NCBI GenBank assembly: GCA_945869475.1
Contig: CAMBOV010000002.1
Coordinates: 124,001 to 188,000, forward strand
Length of the DNA stretch: 64,000 nucleotides
Origin: Singulisphaera sp. GP187
GTDB lineage: Bacteria; Planctomycetota; Phycisphaerae; Phycisphaerales; SM1A02
Direction of reading: 5' to 3'
Shown: one piece after another, positions 3,972 through 18,148 of the stretch
Position numbering within the stretch: position 1 is the first letter of the stretch
How the letters are laid out: each line of letters begins with the position of its first letter
Notes under the pieces: model-generated
Told to the model about the DNA's origin: nothing
What the model saw: only the letters and a program-made list of their open reading frames with translations
Database searches by the model: none
Program-made: the position numbers and the translations under genes

Positions 3972-4940
3972 ATGCGCGACCGTCCCGTCGAAAGCGTCAC
4001 AGTCATAGCGCGCGCGACACGCTTTTCCAAGCGATCCATCAAAGGCCCGTCGAAGCGGCAGGCGCTTCGGATGGCGCTCTCGATGATCGACCTCACAACC
4101 CTCGAAGGGAAAGACTCCGCTGAAAAAGTGCGCGCACTCTGTCGCAAGGCGATCGCGCCGAGTGAGTTGGCGTTCGATCCACCGCTGCCGAGTGTCGGTG
4201 CGGTGTGCGTCTATCCAGCGCTTGTGCAAGTCGCGCGTGAGGCGCTGCAGGGAAGTTGTGTAAAGGTCGCGTCGGTTGCGACTGGCTTTCCGAGCGGTCA
4301 GTATCCACTCGATGTTCGACTTGAAGATTGTCGGCGTGCCGTGCACGCGGGGGCGCATGAGATTGACATGGTGATTTCGCGCGGACTCTTTCTCGAAGGC
4401 AAGTACGACGAGATTCGCCGAGAGATTCAGCAGACACGCGCCGTCTGTCTGGCGACCGCGCCTGGGCAGAGCGCGCCGCATCTCAAGATCATTCTCGAGA
4501 CGGGCGAACTTGGAACACTCGACTCGATTCGTCGAGCAAGTGATCTTGCAATCGATGCAGCGGTGAGTGTGCCGGGCGCCGCTGCCCCCGCAGATGGCGA
4601 TGTGTTCATTAAGACATCCACTGGAAAGGTGCAACCAGCTGCAACGATGCCGGTGACACTCGTGATGCTCGAAGCAATTCGCGATCACTTTCTCGCAACG
4701 GGCACGCGCATCGGCATGAAGCCCGCGGGAGGAATTCGCACGGCGAAGAGTGCCATCGCCTACCTCGTGATGGTGAAAGAGACTCTCGGCGAAGAGTGGC
4801 TCACTCCATCGCTCTTTCGATTTGGTGCGTCGACACTCGCCAATGATGTGATTCGGCAACTCCTCCGCCTCGAACTTCCAAGCGCGCTTGATGTTGGTGG
4901 CGGCGTTCGGTACGCAGCCTCGTACGACCCCAGTGAGTGA
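3972..4940 (+). CDS. deoC: Deoxyribose-phosphate aldolase
   Basis: This class I aldolase cleaves 2-deoxyribose-5-phosphate to glyceraldehyde-3-phosphate and acetaldehyde in deoxynucleoside catabolism. The Schiff-base lysine is K214 in DVFIKTSTGK. The partner lysine is K250 in MKPAGGIR, and the acid residue is D132 in HEIDMVISRG. At 322 residues it is longer than the usual 220-260 because of a basic N-terminal extension of about 35 residues. An internal ATG at 4071 (MALSMIDLTTLE) would remove the extension. No other deoxynucleoside genes lie nearby. The acetaldehyde it makes could feed aldehyde dehydrogenases, but the ALDH pair at 15-17 kb is too far away to infer a link. Confidence 0.93.
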   Translation: MRDRPVESVTVIARATRFSKRSIKGPSKRQALRMALSMIDLTTLEGKDSAEKVRALCRKAIAPSELAFDPPLPSVGAVCVYPALVQVAREALQGSCVKVASVATGFPSGQYPLDVRLEDCRRAVHAGAHEIDMVISRGLFLEGKYDEIRREIQQTRAVCLATAPGQSAPHLKIILETGELGTLDSIRRASDLAIDAAVSVPGAAAPADGDVFIKTSTGKVQPAATMPVTLVMLEAIRDHFLATGTRIGMKPAGGIRTAKSAIAYLVMVKETLGEEWLTPSLFRFGASTLANDVIRQLLRLELPSALDVGGGVRYAASYDPSE

Positions 4941-10641: not shown

Positions 10642-11439
10642 CTACTTCGGACTCGGCGCAGGGATCGGCTGCGCCCGTTGCGGTTGAAGATTCGCGGCCC
10701 AGAGTATCCCACGCTTGATGTGTTCGCGAAAGAGTGGCTCTGAAAAAGACGCCTTGGTGTGACCGCCCGCGGTGTACCAACTGCGGCCCTTCTTCATCAT
10801 GCGCCACCAGACACAGGGGTGATCGCCATTCATTGCGCCACCTTCATACGAAGTCTCGTCGAGCGACGCGAGAACGTGTATGCCCTCGACCTTGCGCGGA
10901 TTTCGATTGAAGCGGTACCACTCATCGGTGCGTTGCCAACGCGAGGGCAGCATCGCGGTCGACGGATGTGAGTGATCCTCGACGATGATCGTCGCGATCT
11001 GCACATCAGGATGGCCCGCGAAATGCGCTCCGACCAACTCGACGAACCACGGCCACTCATGCTCAGTGTCACTCGCTGCGTGGATGCCGGCGAACCCACC
11101 ACCCGCCTCGACGAATTCTTGAAAGGCGAATTGCTGCTGTGGGTCGAGCACATCTCCAGTCGTCGAAAGAAAGACAACGGCGCGAAAACCCTTGAGGTTC
11201 TCACTGGTGAATTGCGTCGCGTCTTCGGTCGCAACAACTTCGACATCGGGAGCGAGAACTTCGCGCACACACGCGATGCCTTCAGGAATCGAATCATGAC
11301 GAAAGGTCGCGGTCTTCGAGAAGACGAGCACGCGGGGCTTTGGTGTGACGTGTGGCGCAACCTCTTGCGTTGCGATGAGTACGCCCACGAGCATCACAGC
11401 GCACGCGGTCACAAGTGGAATGCGTGAGAGAAACGTCAT
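10642..11439 (-). CDS. ThuA-like domain protein, exported
   Basis: This 265-residue protein has an N-terminal signal or anchor segment (LVTACAVMLVGVLIATQ). A class-I glutamine-amidotransferase-like fold of the ThuA family follows. Recognisable blocks are VLVFSKTATFRHDSIPEG at the start of the domain, GGGFAGIHAASDTEHEWPW in the middle, and HPCVWWRMMKKGRSWYTAGGH near the end. ThuA-like domains in planctomycetes are usually exported and linked to carbohydrate use, but their reaction is not established. The classical catalytic cysteine of amidotransferases is absent, as usual for ThuA. The gene lies 10 bases downstream of the HlyD-type adaptor on the same strand. Confidence 0.88.
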   Translation of the reverse strand: MTFLSRIPLVTACAVMLVGVLIATQEVAPHVTPKPRVLVFSKTATFRHDSIPEGIACVREVLAPDVEVVATEDATQFTSENLKGFRAVVFLSTTGDVLDPQQQFAFQEFVEAGGGFAGIHAASDTEHEWPWFVELVGAHFAGHPDVQIATIIVEDHSHPSTAMLPSRWQRTDEWYRFNRNPRKVEGIHVLASLDETSYEGGAMNGDHPCVWWRMMKKGRSWYTAGGHTKASFSEPLFREHIKRGILWAANLQPQRAQPIPAPSPK

Positions 11440-11449
11440 ATGTCTTGCG

Positions 11450-13159
11450 TCACGAGTCGCGCACTGGTTTGGTGCCAGTTGGCTGCGCTGGCTGTGTGCG
11501 ACCTACGTCTGGCTTCCCCGAATTCTTGCCCGTCGTGTTCGTTGAGTCGTTGTCTTTCGGAGTGGTCACGTCGGCTGGCAGGCGAGCGACGATCTCATCG
11601 GCAGTCGGCTCGCGCAAGAGCACGAGATCGCCTTCTTCGAGTCCAGAGAGAACTTCGGTCTCCATCTCACTCGAGCGACCAATCACCACTTGTTTTTGGC
11701 TGAAACCCATCTCGTCTGGGATGTACACAAAGGCGACCGCTCCACTTCGAAAGACCGATTGCACAGGAACGCTCAATACATCCGTCGCGCTTCCGAGCAG
11801 AATCGATGCCTTGCAGCGCATACTGGGCTTGAGTGCGAGTGACTCAGCCTCATCGAGCAAGACGCGCACCTTGTAGTCGCGGCGATTGGGGTCGCGCCAT
11901 CCGCCGCTCTCTGCGAGCACACTCACATTCATCACGGTGCCATGAATTGGAGTGGTTGGGCTCGCGTCGCTGAAAATCGTGACCCCTTGATCTGGTTTGA
12001 TCTGACCCGAGAGTGCCTCGCTCACCTTGAGGTAGGCGACCATCTGCGAAGTGTCCGGGATGATCATCGCGAGTTCGTTGGGCTTCAATTCAGTACCAGC
12101 TGCAAGCGGCGCCGAATCACCCGAGCGACCCCATCCACCAGATTCCAAACTGCTTGCGTAGACAACAAGTCCATCGGTCGGGGAGCGAATCGTTGTGTTC
12201 TCGAGTGCGCGTTCGCCTTGCGTGAGCCGTTCACTTGCGTTCTTCGTTCGAAAGAGTGCGCTCTCATGATCGGATTGCGCCTTGACGATCTCTGCGTCTT
12301 TCTTTTGTTCTGTGCGCACTCGCTCGGCAGTCGCCTGCTCGAGATCCGAACGCTTTTTCGCCTCATCTTGAGGACGCTGAAACTTCTCGTACACCTCGAT
12401 GTTGAGCGCCGACTGCTTGACCTTCGCGTCCGCCTGGATGAGAGCGATTCGATCTTTCTCATACTCGTCGCGACTGATGAATCCCTTGGCGACGAGCGAT
12501 TCGGATTCGGCGTATCGCTTGCGCAATCGCTCGGCGTCGATTGTCGCTGCTTCGATCTCGGTCGCGAGTTGCTGGCGCTTCGAGACGAGGTCGCCGCTGA
12601 TCCATCCTTCAAGTGCGAGTTGGCTGAGCTGCACCTGCAGATTGGCCTTCTCGATCTCGCTCGCGCGTTCATTCTTCTTGATCGCGAGTGCCTGTTCGTT
12701 CGAAACTGCCTCAGCCTGCGAGGTCTTGAGTTTGTCCTGCAGATCTTTGATCTTGTCCGCCGCCTCTTCGCTGGCAAACTTCAGAAGCACATCACCCTTG
12801 GCGACGCGCCGTCCTTCAGCAACGATTTCAGTGATGACCGCGCGACCCTCAAGCAAGTTGCGAACCTCAACCTGTCGCAGTGCGGCGAGTTCACCTGAGA
12901 CTGGAATGGCGATATCGAAATCGGTGCGGCTCACCGTGTGAATGTCGAGCGCACGTGCGCCGAGTAATCCGGAAGTTGGCGTCGCCCCCGAGCTCGAGCC
13001 GCTCATTGCCGCTCGCCACCTATCGAAGTTCGCCAGTGTCACGGCGGTGCCACTCACCAGGATCATGAGGATCGCGAATCGCCACCCGAAGCGTCGAAGT
13101 GGTTTGGTGCTGGTTGGCGGCGTGAATTCGACAGACATCTCTGCGAAGCCTAGCTTCAC
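11450..13159 (-). CDS. HlyD/MacA-family periplasmic adaptor protein
   Basis: This is a 569-residue membrane-fusion protein. A membrane anchor (GWRFAILMILVSGTAVTLA) is followed by a lipoyl-like half-domain (PVSGELAALRQVEVRN). A very long coiled-coil hairpin (about residues 130-320, rich in Glu/Lys/Gln) comes next, then the second lipoyl half and a beta-barrel (VRVLLDEAESLALKPSMRC). Such adaptors link an inner-membrane pump to a TolC-type channel. The GTG start at 13159 overlaps the TolC-like stop (GTGA). ATG at 13138 (MSVEFTPP) is an alternative. No ABC or RND pump gene is present in the window, so the inner-membrane partner must be encoded elsewhere. Confidence 0.9.
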   Translation of the reverse strand: MKLGFAEMSVEFTPPTSTKPLRRFGWRFAILMILVSGTAVTLANFDRWRAAMSGSSSGATPTSGLLGARALDIHTVSRTDFDIAIPVSGELAALRQVEVRNLLEGRAVITEIVAEGRRVAKGDVLLKFASEEAADKIKDLQDKLKTSQAEAVSNEQALAIKKNERASEIEKANLQVQLSQLALEGWISGDLVSKRQQLATEIEAATIDAERLRKRYAESESLVAKGFISRDEYEKDRIALIQADAKVKQSALNIEVYEKFQRPQDEAKKRSDLEQATAERVRTEQKKDAEIVKAQSDHESALFRTKNASERLTQGERALENTTIRSPTDGLVVYASSLESGGWGRSGDSAPLAAGTELKPNELAMIIPDTSQMVAYLKVSEALSGQIKPDQGVTIFSDASPTTPIHGTVMNVSVLAESGGWRDPNRRDYKVRVLLDEAESLALKPSMRCKASILLGSATDVLSVPVQSVFRSGAVAFVYIPDEMGFSQKQVVIGRSSEMETEVLSGLEEGDLVLLREPTADEIVARLPADVTTPKDNDSTNTTGKNSGKPDVGRTQPAQPTGTKPVRDS

Positions 13160-14952
13160 GCAGGGGGAATCTCAGCGGGTTGTGCGAGAATTCCCGCTCC
13201 ACGTCTATATCGGACCTCCATCCCATCGGGAGCGATGATCTCGCCATCGTCTGAGACGCGAAGCTGTCCAGTCTGTCGTAGATACTCAAGGATTGCGATT
13301 TGCACTTCGCGAAGAGCGCGTGCCTTGTCGTTTTCTGCCGCGCTCAGGGCATCCACGGCATCTGTTCGATCGCGTGGAGTCGCGCGATCGGGCGCTGCAT
13401 CGATGCTTGCCTGACGATTGCGCGCGATGTCGAGATTGCGGTCTTGAAGCGAGACGCTGTAGAGCCCGCGATCGATGCGCCGGATCGCTTGGCGAACTTC
13501 GACGGCGGCACCGTTCTGCGCAAAGATGAATGCGCGATCGAGTTGTTCGAGGCGAACCTGGGCCTTGCGAACGTTGATCTCTTCAATCGTGCGGTCGAGC
13601 GGAATATCAAACTGCATTCCCACGGTGTAATCACTGAACGAATCGTCGAGTTGAATGCCATTGAAGAAATCTGGATTCTTCAACATCGATGCGCTTGCGA
13701 CCAGATTCGCACCAGGAAGCACCGCATTGCGCGCGTTGTCGACCGCTCGCTTGGCGTCGGCGACTTGATCGCGCGTGTTCTGTAAGTCGAGTCGCCACTC
13801 GAACGCCGACGCGACTGCGCGCGCTGATTCAACGACCGGCGGATCGAGATCGAGCATCTCTGGATCGATCACGATAGGCGCGTCGGTCTCATATCCGATG
13901 CGCAGCTTAAAGCGATCGACGGCGAACTTGTAACCCTCTTCGAGACCGATGAGTCGGTCGATCACGAAGAGTGCGCGTTGCTTGGCGAGATCGGCTTGAA
14001 AGGCGACCTGCCGTCCACTCTGGACAAGAGCATCTTCGCGCTCGATGATCAGTCGAAGTCGATCGATCTGATTGCGTGTGTTTGCGATGACCTGCTGTTG
14101 CACCACCAACTCATGAAAATCACTAAAAATCGCGATGTAAAAACGCCTTCGGAACTCTTCGAAGGCGCGCGCGCCGTAGATCATGTTGCGCTTCGCCTGG
14201 ATGAGTGGTTCTTGCGCGACGAGACCGGCTCCGCGAAGAAGCGGAATCTGAAGGTTCAGTGCGATGTCGAGTGAACTCGCTTGGCCGGTTTGAATGGCGT
14301 CATTGAGTTGTTCAGATGCTTGCGCGAGAATCGTCGCGCTGATCTCGCCGCCATAGGGCAACTTCTGCCGAACCGAAAAATCGTTGACGAGTTGCAGTGC
14401 GGTCGACTGCGCTCCGTTGATCCCAAGACCTTGCACGCGCGGGGTGATCGTGTCGATGAAGCGGGGGGTCCAGAGGTGTTGCTGGATCAAGAGGTCGAGC
14501 GCGATGAGCAGGTACTGCTCTTCAGCGATGCGGTACTCGAGACTCTTGTTGATGCCATACTGCACACTCTTGGCGAGGGTGAAGTGCTCAGCATTCGCTA
14601 GCGGTTCAACCACTGCGGTGACCTCGCGAATCGTCTTGTCGGCGTCGATCACCGCGCGCTTTCGCGCCTCATACTTCAAGGTCTCGGGGGGAGGATTGTC
14701 CGTCGGCGGCTCGTTGAGTCCAGGAGAATCTGGAGTGAAGTTCACACCCGCGTAGCGCGACTCTGCTTGCTTGATCGTCGGGACGCTCGAGGGTTCGCCG
14801 ATCGATTCACTGGCCTTGCGAAGGCGATCTTCAGTCTCAGCATCTATGACTGCGAACCGCTGTTGATCGCAAGATGAGAAAATTACTGTAGCGAGAGCAG
14901 TAATGGCGACGTACGACCATCTTCTGGACTGTTTCGCGACGGATCGCGCCAT
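13156..14952 (-). CDS. TolC-type outer-membrane efflux lipoprotein
   Basis: This outer-membrane factor is about 598 residues long from ATG 14952. That start gives a clean lipoprotein signal peptide ending in the lipobox VIFSSC. The frame extends to an ATG at 15006, but this would add an unlikely charged leader. The body shows two long helical repeats typical of the OEP fold, with KLPYGGEISATILAQ and MQFDIPLDRTIEEINVRKAQVRLEQ as barrel and helix landmarks. It would form a trimeric channel through the outer membrane that docks onto the HlyD-type adaptor encoded immediately downstream (GTGA overlap). The gene lies just downstream of the short aldehyde dehydrogenase gene on the same strand. Confidence 0.87.
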   Translation of the reverse strand: MARSVAKQSRRWSYVAITALATVIFSSCDQQRFAVIDAETEDRLRKASESIGEPSSVPTIKQAESRYAGVNFTPDSPGLNEPPTDNPPPETLKYEARKRAVIDADKTIREVTAVVEPLANAEHFTLAKSVQYGINKSLEYRIAEEQYLLIALDLLIQQHLWTPRFIDTITPRVQGLGINGAQSTALQLVNDFSVRQKLPYGGEISATILAQASEQLNDAIQTGQASSLDIALNLQIPLLRGAGLVAQEPLIQAKRNMIYGARAFEEFRRRFYIAIFSDFHELVVQQQVIANTRNQIDRLRLIIEREDALVQSGRQVAFQADLAKQRALFVIDRLIGLEEGYKFAVDRFKLRIGYETDAPIVIDPEMLDLDPPVVESARAVASAFEWRLDLQNTRDQVADAKRAVDNARNAVLPGANLVASASMLKNPDFFNGIQLDDSFSDYTVGMQFDIPLDRTIEEINVRKAQVRLEQLDRAFIFAQNGAAVEVRQAIRRIDRGLYSVSLQDRNLDIARNRQASIDAAPDRATPRDRTDAVDALSAAENDKARALREVQIAILEYLRQTGQLRVSDDGEIIAPDGMEVRYRRGAGILAQPAEIPPA

Positions 14953-15017
14953 TTTTACAGACGATCGACTATTGTCAGCGATTGTTATGTGAACGTCTTC
15001 GATCATGTGCCGATCTT

Positions 15018-15899
15018 CTACGAACCAATCGTGTGCCAGACGGTCTTTGTCTCTGTCACGCCATCAAACGCTCGTGGGGAGGTCCAGAGATCATCCTTCA
15101 TGAAGTCGGCCGATGGATCGACCAACCGAACGCGCTTGAAGTTCTCAGAGACTCCCAACTGAAGGATCTTCGCATGGGCGGGTGCAACCGATGCAACGAC
15201 TGCGTCAACATCGCGGTGGGATGCCGCCACCGGAACGAGCTCATCGCGACTGCCTGTGAGCAGATTGAACACCCCCGCTGGGATGTCCGCGCTCGGCGCG
15301 CATTCGGCGACGACGAGGGCGGCAATGGGATCGGTCGAACTCGCGACCGCCACAACCGCGCAACCGCACGCGAGAGCTGGCAGGGTGAGGGTCAGAAACC
15401 CAAGGAGCGGCGAGGCTTCTGGGGCAAAGATCGCGACAACTCCGCTGGGCTCAACCTGTGAGAAGCAATGAAATGGACCCGTCACAGGATTTCGACCGCC
15501 CACGACGCACTCCAACTTATCACTCCAACCCGCGAACGAAACCGTGGCATCGATCGCGCGAGTGACCTCGCGGCGAGCATCCCCCTTGCCGATGCGACCA
15601 CTCATGCGAATCGCATCGATCAGTTCTTCAGTGCGTCCTTCGAGAACTTCAGCGAGTCGGTAAAGAATCTGCCCGCGCAGATAGCCGCTTGAGGCCGCCC
15701 ACTTTTCTTGTGCGCCGCGCGCCGCTTCGACCGCATCACGAAAATCTTTGCGCGAGGCTTGTGCCGCGTACACAACGACACGACTGGCAGCGCGTGCACG
15801 TGCGTCAACGACGGGGGCGACGCGTCCAGATTCACTTCGCGGATAGCCCCCAGCGATGAACAACTTCCAGGTCTTCGTGATGTCTGTGCGTGTGGTCAT
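15018..15899 (-). CDS. Catalytically dead short aldehyde dehydrogenase-fold protein (ALDH16 C-domain-like)
   Basis: This is 293 residues from the ATG at 15899 (MTTRTDITKTWKLFIAGGYP). It matches the N-terminal and cofactor-domain part of an aldehyde dehydrogenase (KLFIAGGYPRSESGR, GVVAIFAPEASPLLGFLTLT, ALACGCAVVAVASSTDP, DIPAGVFNLLTGSRDE). It stops before any catalytic-domain cysteine and also lacks the LELGG glutamate motif, so it cannot be an active ALDH alone. It begins 19 bases after the full-length ALDH gene. Together the two add up to about 776 residues, close to bacterial ALDH16, which carries such a degenerate second domain fused to the first. I infer a split ALDH16, with this part acting in dimerisation or scaffolding. 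Confidence 0.85.
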   Translation of the reverse strand: MTTRTDITKTWKLFIAGGYPRSESGRVAPVVDARARAASRVVVYAAQASRKDFRDAVEAARGAQEKWAASSGYLRGQILYRLAEVLEGRTEELIDAIRMSGRIGKGDARREVTRAIDATVSFAGWSDKLECVVGGRNPVTGPFHCFSQVEPSGVVAIFAPEASPLLGFLTLTLPALACGCAVVAVASSTDPIAALVVAECAPSADIPAGVFNLLTGSRDELVPVAASHRDVDAVVASVAPAHAKILQLGVSENFKRVRLVDPSADFMKDDLWTSPRAFDGVTETKTVWHTIGS

Positions 15900-15918
15900 G
15901 TGATTCCTTCTGTGGCGC

Positions 15919-17370
15919 TCACGCCAAGTATGCGGCAAGTCCCGCCCGTCCGCCCTCGCGACCGAATCCTGATTCGCGGTATCCACCAAACGGTGCCGAT
16001 GGATCGAACTGATTGAATGTGTTGCACCAGATCACTCCAGCTTTGATCTGGCGCGCAATCTCGTACGCCTTCGACCCACGGCTCGTCCAGATGCCTGCGC
16101 TCAATCCATACATTGTGTTGTTGGCGCGTGCGACCGCCTCGTCCGGAGTGCGAAAGGTCATTACGGCGAGAACCGGTCCAAAGATTTCTTCGCGCGCGAT
16201 TGTGTGTGCGGGTTGCACTCCCGTGAAGAAGCAGGGGCGACACCAGAATCCCTTCTTGGGAGTGGCGACTTCTTTGCAGGCGTTGTGTGTTGCACCTTCG
16301 GCGATTCCAACCTTGATGTACCGCTCAATGCGATCGAGTTGTGCGCGACTATTGATCGCGCCGACGTCGGTGTTCTTATCAAGTGGATCACCCACGCGAA
16401 GACTCTTCATGCGAAGGTGCAACTTCGCGATGACCTCTTCGGCGACTGACTCTTCGACAAGCAGTCGACTTCCTGCGCAACAAACTTGCCCTTGGTTCGC
16501 CCAAATCGCAGCGACCACTCCTTCGACAGCCTGATCGATCGCAGCGTCTGCAAAGATAATGTTTGGACTTTTTCCGCCTAATTCAAGTGTTAAACGCTTC
16601 TTGGTGCCAGCCACGGTTGCGGCGATTGAACGTCCGACTTCGGTCGATCCTGTGAATGCAATCTTGTCGATATCACTGTGCGCGACGATCTCGCGTCCTG
16701 TCTCGCCCGCGCCGGTCACGATGTTGACCACCCCCGCGGGGAGGTCGACCTCTTGCAAAATCTCTGCGAGGCGAAGGGCTGTGAGCGAGGTCGTCTCGGC
16801 TGGCTTCAACACAACGGTGTTGCCGCATGCGAGTGCGGGGGCGATCTTCCACGCCGCCATCAACAATGGAAAGTTCCACGGGATGATCTGTCCACAGACA
16901 CCAACAGGTTGTGGAGTGTTGCCGTCACTTGTCGCAGAGGCATAGCGCAACTTGTCGCACCATCCCGCGTGATGAAAGAAGTGCGCGGCCGCGAGCGGAA
17001 CATCTTCGTCACGCGTCTCGCGAATCGGCTTGCCGTTGTTCATCGTCTCGAGCACCGCGAGCTCACGCGCACGCTCTTGAATGCGCCGCGCAATTCGGTA
17101 GAGATACTTCGCGCGCTCAATCGCCGGAGTTCGGCGCCATCCCTTCAACGCCTTTCGCGCCGCCGCGACCGCACTATTTACATCCTTCGCGTCGGCCTCT
17201 GCGATGCGCGCGAGTGGCGCTTCAGTCGCTGGGTTGATCGTGTCAAAGAACCGACCCGACATTGGATCGCGAAACGCGCCGCCAATGAAGAGTCCGTACT
17301 GCGCTTTGATCTCGACCTTGGTCGACTCGGGCGCGGGTGAATACTGCCAGGGTGCGGCTGAACCAGTCAT
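15919..17370 (-). CDS. NAD(P)-dependent aldehyde dehydrogenase
   Basis: This is 483 residues from the ATG at 17370 (MTGSAAPWQYSPAP). The frame runs on to 17646, but that stretch is antisense to the ROK kinase start. All ALDH landmarks are present: PWNFPLL with N166, the FTGSTEVGRSIA cofactor loop, E263 in LELGGKSPN, and the catalytic cysteine C297 in NQGQVCCAG. The EEIFGPVL motif and a C-terminal PFGGYRESGFGREGG are also there. It oxidises an aldehyde to a carboxylic acid. The next gene downstream encodes a truncated ALDH-fold protein, which together with this one resembles a split bacterial ALDH16. The substrate is unknown. Confidence 0.95.
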   Translation of the reverse strand: MTGSAAPWQYSPAPESTKVEIKAQYGLFIGGAFRDPMSGRFFDTINPATEAPLARIAEADAKDVNSAVAAARKALKGWRRTPAIERAKYLYRIARRIQERARELAVLETMNNGKPIRETRDEDVPLAAAHFFHHAGWCDKLRYASATSDGNTPQPVGVCGQIIPWNFPLLMAAWKIAPALACGNTVVLKPAETTSLTALRLAEILQEVDLPAGVVNIVTGAGETGREIVAHSDIDKIAFTGSTEVGRSIAATVAGTKKRLTLELGGKSPNIIFADAAIDQAVEGVVAAIWANQGQVCCAGSRLLVEESVAEEVIAKLHLRMKSLRVGDPLDKNTDVGAINSRAQLDRIERYIKVGIAEGATHNACKEVATPKKGFWCRPCFFTGVQPAHTIAREEIFGPVLAVMTFRTPDEAVARANNTMYGLSAGIWTSRGSKAYEIARQIKAGVIWCNTFNQFDPSAPFGGYRESGFGREGGRAGLAAYLA

Positions 17371-17449: not shown

Positions 17450-18148
17450 ATGCAACAACGCGTGCTCGCAATCGATATCGGTGGGACGAACGTCAAGTGT
17501 CGGGTCGAGAGCGATCCAGAGAAACGGTCGTTCGCCTCTGGGATGACGCTCACTCCACAACTCATGATCGAAGGAATGCAGGCGTTGGTGACTGGATGGG
17601 AGTTTGACGTCGTGTCGATTGGGCTTCCTGCGCCGATCGTTGCCAATCAACCCTCGCGCGATCCAACCAATCTGGCGCCTGGATGGGTTGACTTCGACTT
17701 CGCGCACGCGTTTGGCAAGCCCGTCAAACTCATCAACGATGCTGCGATGCAAGCCGTTGGCTCGTACGACGGCGGCCGAATGTTGTTCCTCGGACTCGGC
17801 ACAGGACTCGGCTCGTGCCTCATCGCAGATCATGTGATCTTGCCCATGGAACTCGCGCACTTACCCTTTCGCAAGGGAAAGACTTTCGAACAGTTCGTCG
17901 GAGTCAAGGCTCTCAAGAAGCTCGGCAAGAAAGAGTGGACGCGCGAAGTGCACGCGGTCATCGAGATTCTCAGCGCGGCTCTGATTCCTGATTCCGTTGT
18001 GCTCGGAGGTGGCAACTCAGTGCGCCTGAAAAAACTGCCAGAGAACTGCAAGCTCGGAGCGAACGCAAACGCCTTCGTTGGTGGCTTTCGTTTGTGGACT
18101 CCAGAGTGGGCAAAATCGGTTTCAGCGGTAGCCTCATTGCATGATTGA
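17450..18148 (+). CDS. ROK-family sugar kinase, polyphosphate-glucokinase-like
   Basis: This 232-residue protein has the sugar-kinase phosphate-1 motif (LAIDIGGTNVK) at the N-terminus. It also has a phosphate-2 loop (LFLGLGTGLGSCL) and an adenosine-type motif near the C-terminus (SVVLGGGNSVRL). It lacks the CxCGxxGCxE zinc motif of classical ROK repressors and kinases. It is therefore closer to the short ppgK-like branch, which phosphorylates glucose using ATP or polyphosphate. The gene overlaps the OprB-like porin gene by 8 bases. This suggests a sugar-uptake and phosphorylation pair, which is inferred from context. Confidence 0.85.
   Translation: MQQRVLAIDIGGTNVKCRVESDPEKRSFASGMTLTPQLMIEGMQALVTGWEFDVVSIGLPAPIVANQPSRDPTNLAPGWVDFDFAHAFGKPVKLINDAAMQAVGSYDGGRMLFLGLGTGLGSCLIADHVILPMELAHLPFRKGKTFEQFVGVKALKKLGKKEWTREVHAVIEILSAALIPDSVVLGGGNSVRLKKLPENCKLGANANAFVGGFRLWTPEWAKSVSAVASLHD

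Follow-up and report, generated by a model that had tools for sequence, protein, structure and literature searches.

A two-gene sister form of ALDH16, widespread in bacteria, in which a dead subunit probably completes its catalytic partner

We show here that two neighboring genes in a 64,000-nucleotide stretch of DNA from Singulisphaera sp. GP187 (the window) represent a two-gene sister form of ALDH16, rather than a one-chain ALDH16. The long gene is predicted to encode an NAD-dependent aldehyde dehydrogenase (ALDH), and the short gene a pseudo-ALDH composed of an NAD-binding-type Rossmann domain, a beta-hairpin, and the last strand of the classical fold, the catalytic domain being gone. We consider it likely that the two products form an obligate heterodimer, probably arranged as (alpha-beta)2, in which the dead chain would donate a strand and which would oxidize acetaldehyde derived from DeoC. 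The relevant features of the window are as follows.

15919-17370, minus strand: catalytic subunit, ALDH16 N-part, 483 aa (P0002); ORF with ATG start, assigned by PDB, Pfam, and N-part trees
15018-15899, minus strand: dead ALDH-fold subunit, ALDH16 C-part, 293 aa (P0001); ORF with ATG start, assigned by PDB and AlphaFold
15900-15918, minus strand: spacer of 19 nt with Shine-Dalgarno-like AGAAGGA ahead of the short-gene ATG; read from the sequence
16480-16482, minus strand: codon of the catalytic Cys297 (first Cys of GQVCCAG); C in 295/295 unique N-part rows
16582-16584, minus strand: codon of the general base Glu263 (LELGG); E in 294/295 unique N-part rows
15030-15056, minus strand: C-terminal strand, residues 282-290 of the dead subunit; DSSP on the model, KTVW motif, tail counts, and structural alignment
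3972-4940, plus strand: deoC, deoxyribose-phosphate aldolase, 322 aa; TIGR00126 2.7e-41 (over cut-off), Pfam DeoC 1.6e-8

A first-pass annotation had described a complete ALDH carrying C297, E263, and N166, followed after 19 bases by a 293-residue ALDH-fold protein devoid of the catalytic Cys and Glu, with lengths totaling about 776 residues. This description was borne out in every part. The long protein retains N166, E263, and C297, the lengths add up to 483 + 293 = 776 residues, and the long-gene stop codon, followed by 19 nt and the short-gene ATG, delimits two ORFs, not a single chain. Pfam Aldedh matches both proteins (long, 1.2e-165; short, 1.6e-36). At the positions of E263, C297, and E395, the alignment has gaps in 325/325 unique C-domain rows; the cofactor lysine K189 is missing in 325/325 unique C-part rows and present in 295/295 N-part rows, and the catalytic domain is wholly missing from the short protein. 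A Shine-Dalgarno-like string ahead of the short gene was found in 142/216 split loci, a raw count with no control. Downstream of the pair (10642-15006, minus strand) lie genes for an outer-membrane efflux protein, an HlyD-type fusion protein, and a ThuA-domain protein, and a ROK-like gene (17450-18148, plus strand; Pfam ROK just below cut-off) is divergent from it.

The proposal that the pair corresponds to the two parts of ALDH16 was supported by sequence searches against the PDB, in which each part matched its own half of the one-chain ALDH16 from Loktanella sp. (6mvr, 6mvs, 6mvt, 6mvu), the closest PDB relative of both by sequence. The long protein matched 6mvr residues 12-474 with 565 bits (next ALDH, 418), and the short protein 6mvr/6mvu residues 499-765 with 165 bits and E 2e-47 (next, 88). 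These ranges map the break point to the linker. A profile of the short protein, built from 78 relatives including a few fused ones, likewise ranked 6mvr first (360.8 bits; next, 161). As a single chain, the short protein was predicted by AlphaFold to adopt a confident fold (pLDDT 95.8, pTM 0.93), and a Foldseek search with this model ranked 6mvs, 6mvr, and 6mvu first, 269 residues aligning with 6mvs at 1.4 A and Z 36.2. However, many classical ALDHs also reach Z ~36 against this model, so that the fold alone cannot decide on ALDH16 membership and the decision falls to sequence and trees. PDB searches together with the C-part and rooted trees place the short protein with ALDH16 C-terminal domains rather than with ordinary ALDH fragments; it is an ALDH16 C-terminal domain. 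The Loktanella protein resembles the window's pair in domain order and in its dead C-part, but it is one chain of 767 residues, whereas the window holds two genes; the Loktanella chain itself is no row in the trees, in which split and fused sequences form sister clades.

A dead C-terminal ALDH-like domain beside an active ALDH domain also occurs in large PutA (types B and C), which, unlike two-gene ALDH16, is a one-chain proline-catabolic enzyme. PutA was missing among the best 60 of 209 profile matches of the short protein, which is weak evidence, as the list is partial. A literature search covering few subscription journals found no paper on the PutA C-terminal ALDH-like domain.

The first-pass annotation was right that the parts are separate genes here, but this is not peculiar to the window's genome. 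With a row below E 1e-38 taken as presence, the short gene occurs in 34/61 genomes searched (own, genus, family, and order), or in 33/60 without the own genome: 17/19 in the genus, 13/18 among other family members, and 4/24 among other order members. At 28 of the 29 loci from other genomes among these relatives, the long gene is a separate ORF located upstream and on the same strand; at the remaining one (L025), it lies ~2 kb upstream (L102). A scan of named genomes extended this to Actinomycetota, Bacteroidota, Balneola, Salinivenus, Verrucomicrobiota, Planctomycetota, Chloroflexi, Neomarinimicrobiota, and Proteobacteria. Among the best 80 of at least 596 stretches, 78 were split and 2 cut by a contig end; the query, a computed consensus, was biased toward split sequences, and 78/80 therefore shows spread, not frequency.

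Sampling by phylum, with the phylum of each genome taken as that of the named locus used as search centre, gave matches in 64/392 genomes of the own phylum, 44/398 of Pseudomonadota, 71/296 of Actinomycetota, 58/296 of Bacteroidota, 30/240 of Verrucomicrobiota, and 62/201 of Chloroflexota. A more permissive cut-off was applied to the own phylum, where the last 8 rows, with frames of 491-564 aa, resemble N-type ALDHs. The state was checked on part of the matched loci, with some genes entering twice, and the following are counts of loci, not of genomes: Planctomycetota, 69 split, 21 fused, 6 without an adjacent N-part, and 2 without a C-part; Actinomycetota, 27 split, 0 fused, and 2 without an N-part; Bacteroidota, 21 split, 4 fused, and 2 without; Verrucomicrobiota, 13 split, 2 fused, and 12 without; Chloroflexota, 22 split, 17 fused, and 1 without; Pseudomonadota, 48 fused and 1 split. 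The two-gene form is thus widespread across bacterial phyla and no local oddity. A long open frame as a sign of fusion was dropped in the course of this work: G409, G348, and G408 seemed fused by it and proved split when the N-part was sought in the same frame, and several Actinomycetota loci with long frames were likewise split.

When 91 C-parts were placed in a quick tree, they fell on two sides of one branch (SH-aLRT 100), 29 rows on one and 62 on the other. The 62-row side holds 55 split loci and 7 without an N-part, and the 29-row side 27 fused loci, the nominally split L334, and L352 without an N-part. In L334 (Chloroflexota), the N-part and C-part lie in different frames ~100 nt apart, and in L352 (Verrucomicrobiota), the end of an N-part shares the frame with the C-part; both look like broken fused genes. 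The break in L334 falls between the two parts and reflects a sequence error or else a split that is still fresh. N-part trees, also from quick searches, recover the same two groups (fused 100, split 99; with closer outgroups, fused 99 and split 93). In a careful tree rooted with N-parts and other ALDHs, all C-parts form one clade (100/100) made of two sisters, fused (100/98) and split (96/98); the outgroups of the N-part and rooted trees include long branches. With the truncated N rows of the rooted tree, split N-parts are weakly paraphyletic (80/62), a pattern that full-length N rows do not reproduce. Split and fused forms are thus two deep sister clades in both parts, from which we conclude that the two-gene form is ancient and that there was a single change of state, well before the window's lineage arose.

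This bears on the first-pass suggestion of either an ancestral unfused state or a fission: the one deep branch in both parts contradicts a fission that is recent and confined to this lineage, and the ancestral state may have been either split or fused. That a fused ALDH16 broke up only recently among the window's close kin, or that an assembly frameshift mimics a split, might have been suspected from the fused forms within the same phylum and from L334, the one fused-clade locus that resembles a frameshift, but it is highly improbable given that branch and the fact that spacer lengths and reading-frame relations differ among relatives. An origin in the split form needs fewer steps if a stand-alone gene was the start, which is an argument, not a test.

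Selection on the short gene was estimated within the genus, where 74/120 pairs were dropped as saturated. Over the 46 unsaturated pairs, omega had a median of 0.102 in the dead gene and 0.055 in its catalytic counterpart, which shows that purifying selection acts on the dead gene. With its codons so constrained and the gene present in 33 of the 60 relatives, the pair is neither chance nor a sequencing slip. The absence of all catalytic residues could also be read as the mark of a functionless, decaying ALDH fragment; against the low omega, the retention of the split state in several phyla, and the confident predicted fold, we regard this as almost certainly wrong.

The ends of the two proteins suggest what the dead chain may do. 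When classical ALDHs dimerize, each chain packs its terminal strand against the other. Classical tetrameric ALDHs such as ALDH2 share the fold of both subunits and are homo-oligomers, each chain of which has a catalytic domain and a terminal strand, whereas here these would be divided between the two chains of a complex. The model of the short protein aligns with ALDH2 residues 16 to 497 over 280 residues of the 493-residue chain, as would be expected for a classical ALDH minus its catalytic domain. Close stand-alone relatives end in '...LELY-TQVKSVWINLGS'. The catalytic chain differs from these in that the C-terminal strand motif is missing at its end: it ends in '...LAAYLA', just short of the terminal strand and 1 residue past the model end. 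The dead chain ends in '...TETKTVWHTIGS', i.e., it keeps the terminal strand. In the fused chains inspected, a linker takes the place of the N-part strand and the strand lies at the far C-terminal end.

Scored with one motif on unique sequences, the tail motif is present in 192/214 split, 83/86 fused, and 20/25 C-parts without an adjacent N-part, in 8/8 close stand-alone relatives, and in none of the N-parts (0/220 split, 0/86 fused linkers). These are the counts we use; the C-part figures are lower than those obtained with separate motifs for C and N on loci with repeats (C-parts, 226/231 split, 91/92 fused, and 25/25 others; N-parts, 0/231 and 0/90). Split N-parts extend at most 10 residues beyond the model end in 224/231 loci. 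The motif was found in 0/6 other, more distant ALDHs of the window's genome, which carry 11-36 other residues there. Eight stand-alone planctomycete ALDHs near the ALDH16 N-part (L108, L375-L381) have the classical terminal strand and are a useful outgroup.

That the strand is kept in the dead chain and lost from the catalytic one is more consistent with the two chains pairing with each other than with two homodimers. These complementary losses are an argument, from sequence alone, for an obligate heterodimer. We therefore propose that the dead chain pairs with the catalytic chain and donates its missing terminal strand, and that two such pairs would assemble into a heterotetramer that mimics the classical tetramer, as the one-chain ALDH16 reportedly does as a dimer.

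The two parts also occur together. We searched 42 genomes picked with their C-part status known and took as a true N-part a row of at least 59% identity, others being at 47-52%. All 24 genomes without a true N-part also lacked the C-part. Among the 18 with one, 15 hold the C-part (partial in G009), and the others are G021, in which the C-part is cut by the contig end, G006, in which the N-part lies at a contig end, and G032 (72% complete), in which the N-part lies at a contig start and no C-part was found in the available 3 kb downstream. In 7 genomes the C-part lies apart from the N-part; all 7 hold an N-part elsewhere, 4 of them on another contig. Because the C-part is not always beside the N-part and sometimes is on another contig, the two parts need not be translated together. 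Six Verrucomicrobiota regions (L359-L363, L369) have deoC, the N-part, 1.4-2.2 kb, and the C-part in this order on one strand, and in both loci tested a gene for a POT-family transporter lies between the two parts (L360, 7496-8995, plus strand; L369, 9906-11303, minus strand). N-part to C-part spacing in L359 and L361-L363 is similar to that in L360 and L369. The POT/MFS-family transporter is possibly an importer of the pathway.

These distant arrangements, with another contig in 4 of the 7 cases and the transporter gene in between in 2/2 loci, would suit a different role for the short protein, as a separate regulator or scaffold (e.g., an aldehyde or DeoC sensor) only transiently bound to the ALDH. 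We consider this unlikely, as the terminal-strand motif is missing in 220/220 unique split N-parts, suggesting a permanent partner, as the trees of both parts share the same deep division, and as the fused sister clade ties the parts one to one.

The genomic context of the pair points to a substrate. DeoC converts deoxyribose 5-phosphate to glyceraldehyde 3-phosphate and acetaldehyde, which makes acetaldehyde the likely substrate. Among distinct N-parts that had 1.3 kb or more of upstream flank, whatever was found there, deoC lies directly upstream in 104/113 loci (split, 87/92; fused, 17/21), most of them from the named scan, and deoC-adjacent cases occur in all six phyla sampled. A looser count of 152/161 leans upward, since loci with a short flank were admitted if deoC was seen and set aside otherwise. 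In 4/4 annotated plasmid records (Marivivens, Qingshengfaniella, Roseicitreum, and Pacificitalea), deoC is annotated directly before the fused gene. We propose that the heteromeric complex would oxidize the acetaldehyde released by DeoC in deoxyribose breakdown.

Around the window, this linkage is looser. In the window itself, deoC is ~10 kb from the pair on the opposite strand, and in those genomes of its genus that have both on one contig, 4-13 kb separate the two, again with opposite orientation. Among the 34 genomes with the short gene, deoC lies at most 600 nt upstream in 6 and ~1-2 kb upstream in 4 (G020, G024, G031, and G034, by coordinates and not immediately upstream), and is elsewhere or not found in 24, which include all 17 short-gene genomes of the window's genus. 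It is hence possible that the chains pair on a substrate other than DeoC-derived acetaldehyde and that the deoC linkage reflects shared regulation only. Tight linkage in only 6 of 34 genomes of the wider order and the distance and orientation in the window's genus led us to rate this alternative slightly higher and to lower slightly our confidence in the heterodimer acting on DeoC-derived acetaldehyde; set against the 104 of 113 loci and the cases in all six phyla, we hold the alternative to be doubtful.

Human ALDH16A1 shares the family name and the two-part build, a likeness by description, not by sequence. In PMC10650815, it is called a pseudoenzyme with unclear roles and is one chain without the whole catalytic triad, whereas the window's catalytic chain has the triad. 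In the prozyme system of the TbPRMT1 PRO/ENZ heterotetramer (PMC10211241), an active enzyme is likewise joined by a dead paralogue whose Rossmann fold is altered; this system belongs to another enzyme family, and its pairing was shown, that of the ALDH16 chains being our proposal. A literature search covering few subscription journals found no account of two-gene ALDH16 or of its deoC link.

The deoC linkage in both forms suggests a substrate and a pathway for the bacterial ALDH16 family. In the two-gene form, the dead part can be removed, re-added, or swapped without cutting a chain, and its role is therefore directly testable. We tentatively picture an origin from two genes, which we would not yet favor outright, in which a homo-oligomeric ALDH was duplicated, one copy was stripped of its catalytic domain and the other of its terminal strand, each came to depend on the other, and one later fusion gave rise to the one-chain form; the dead strand donor may still be serving an acetaldehyde dehydrogenase fed by DeoC in many phyla.
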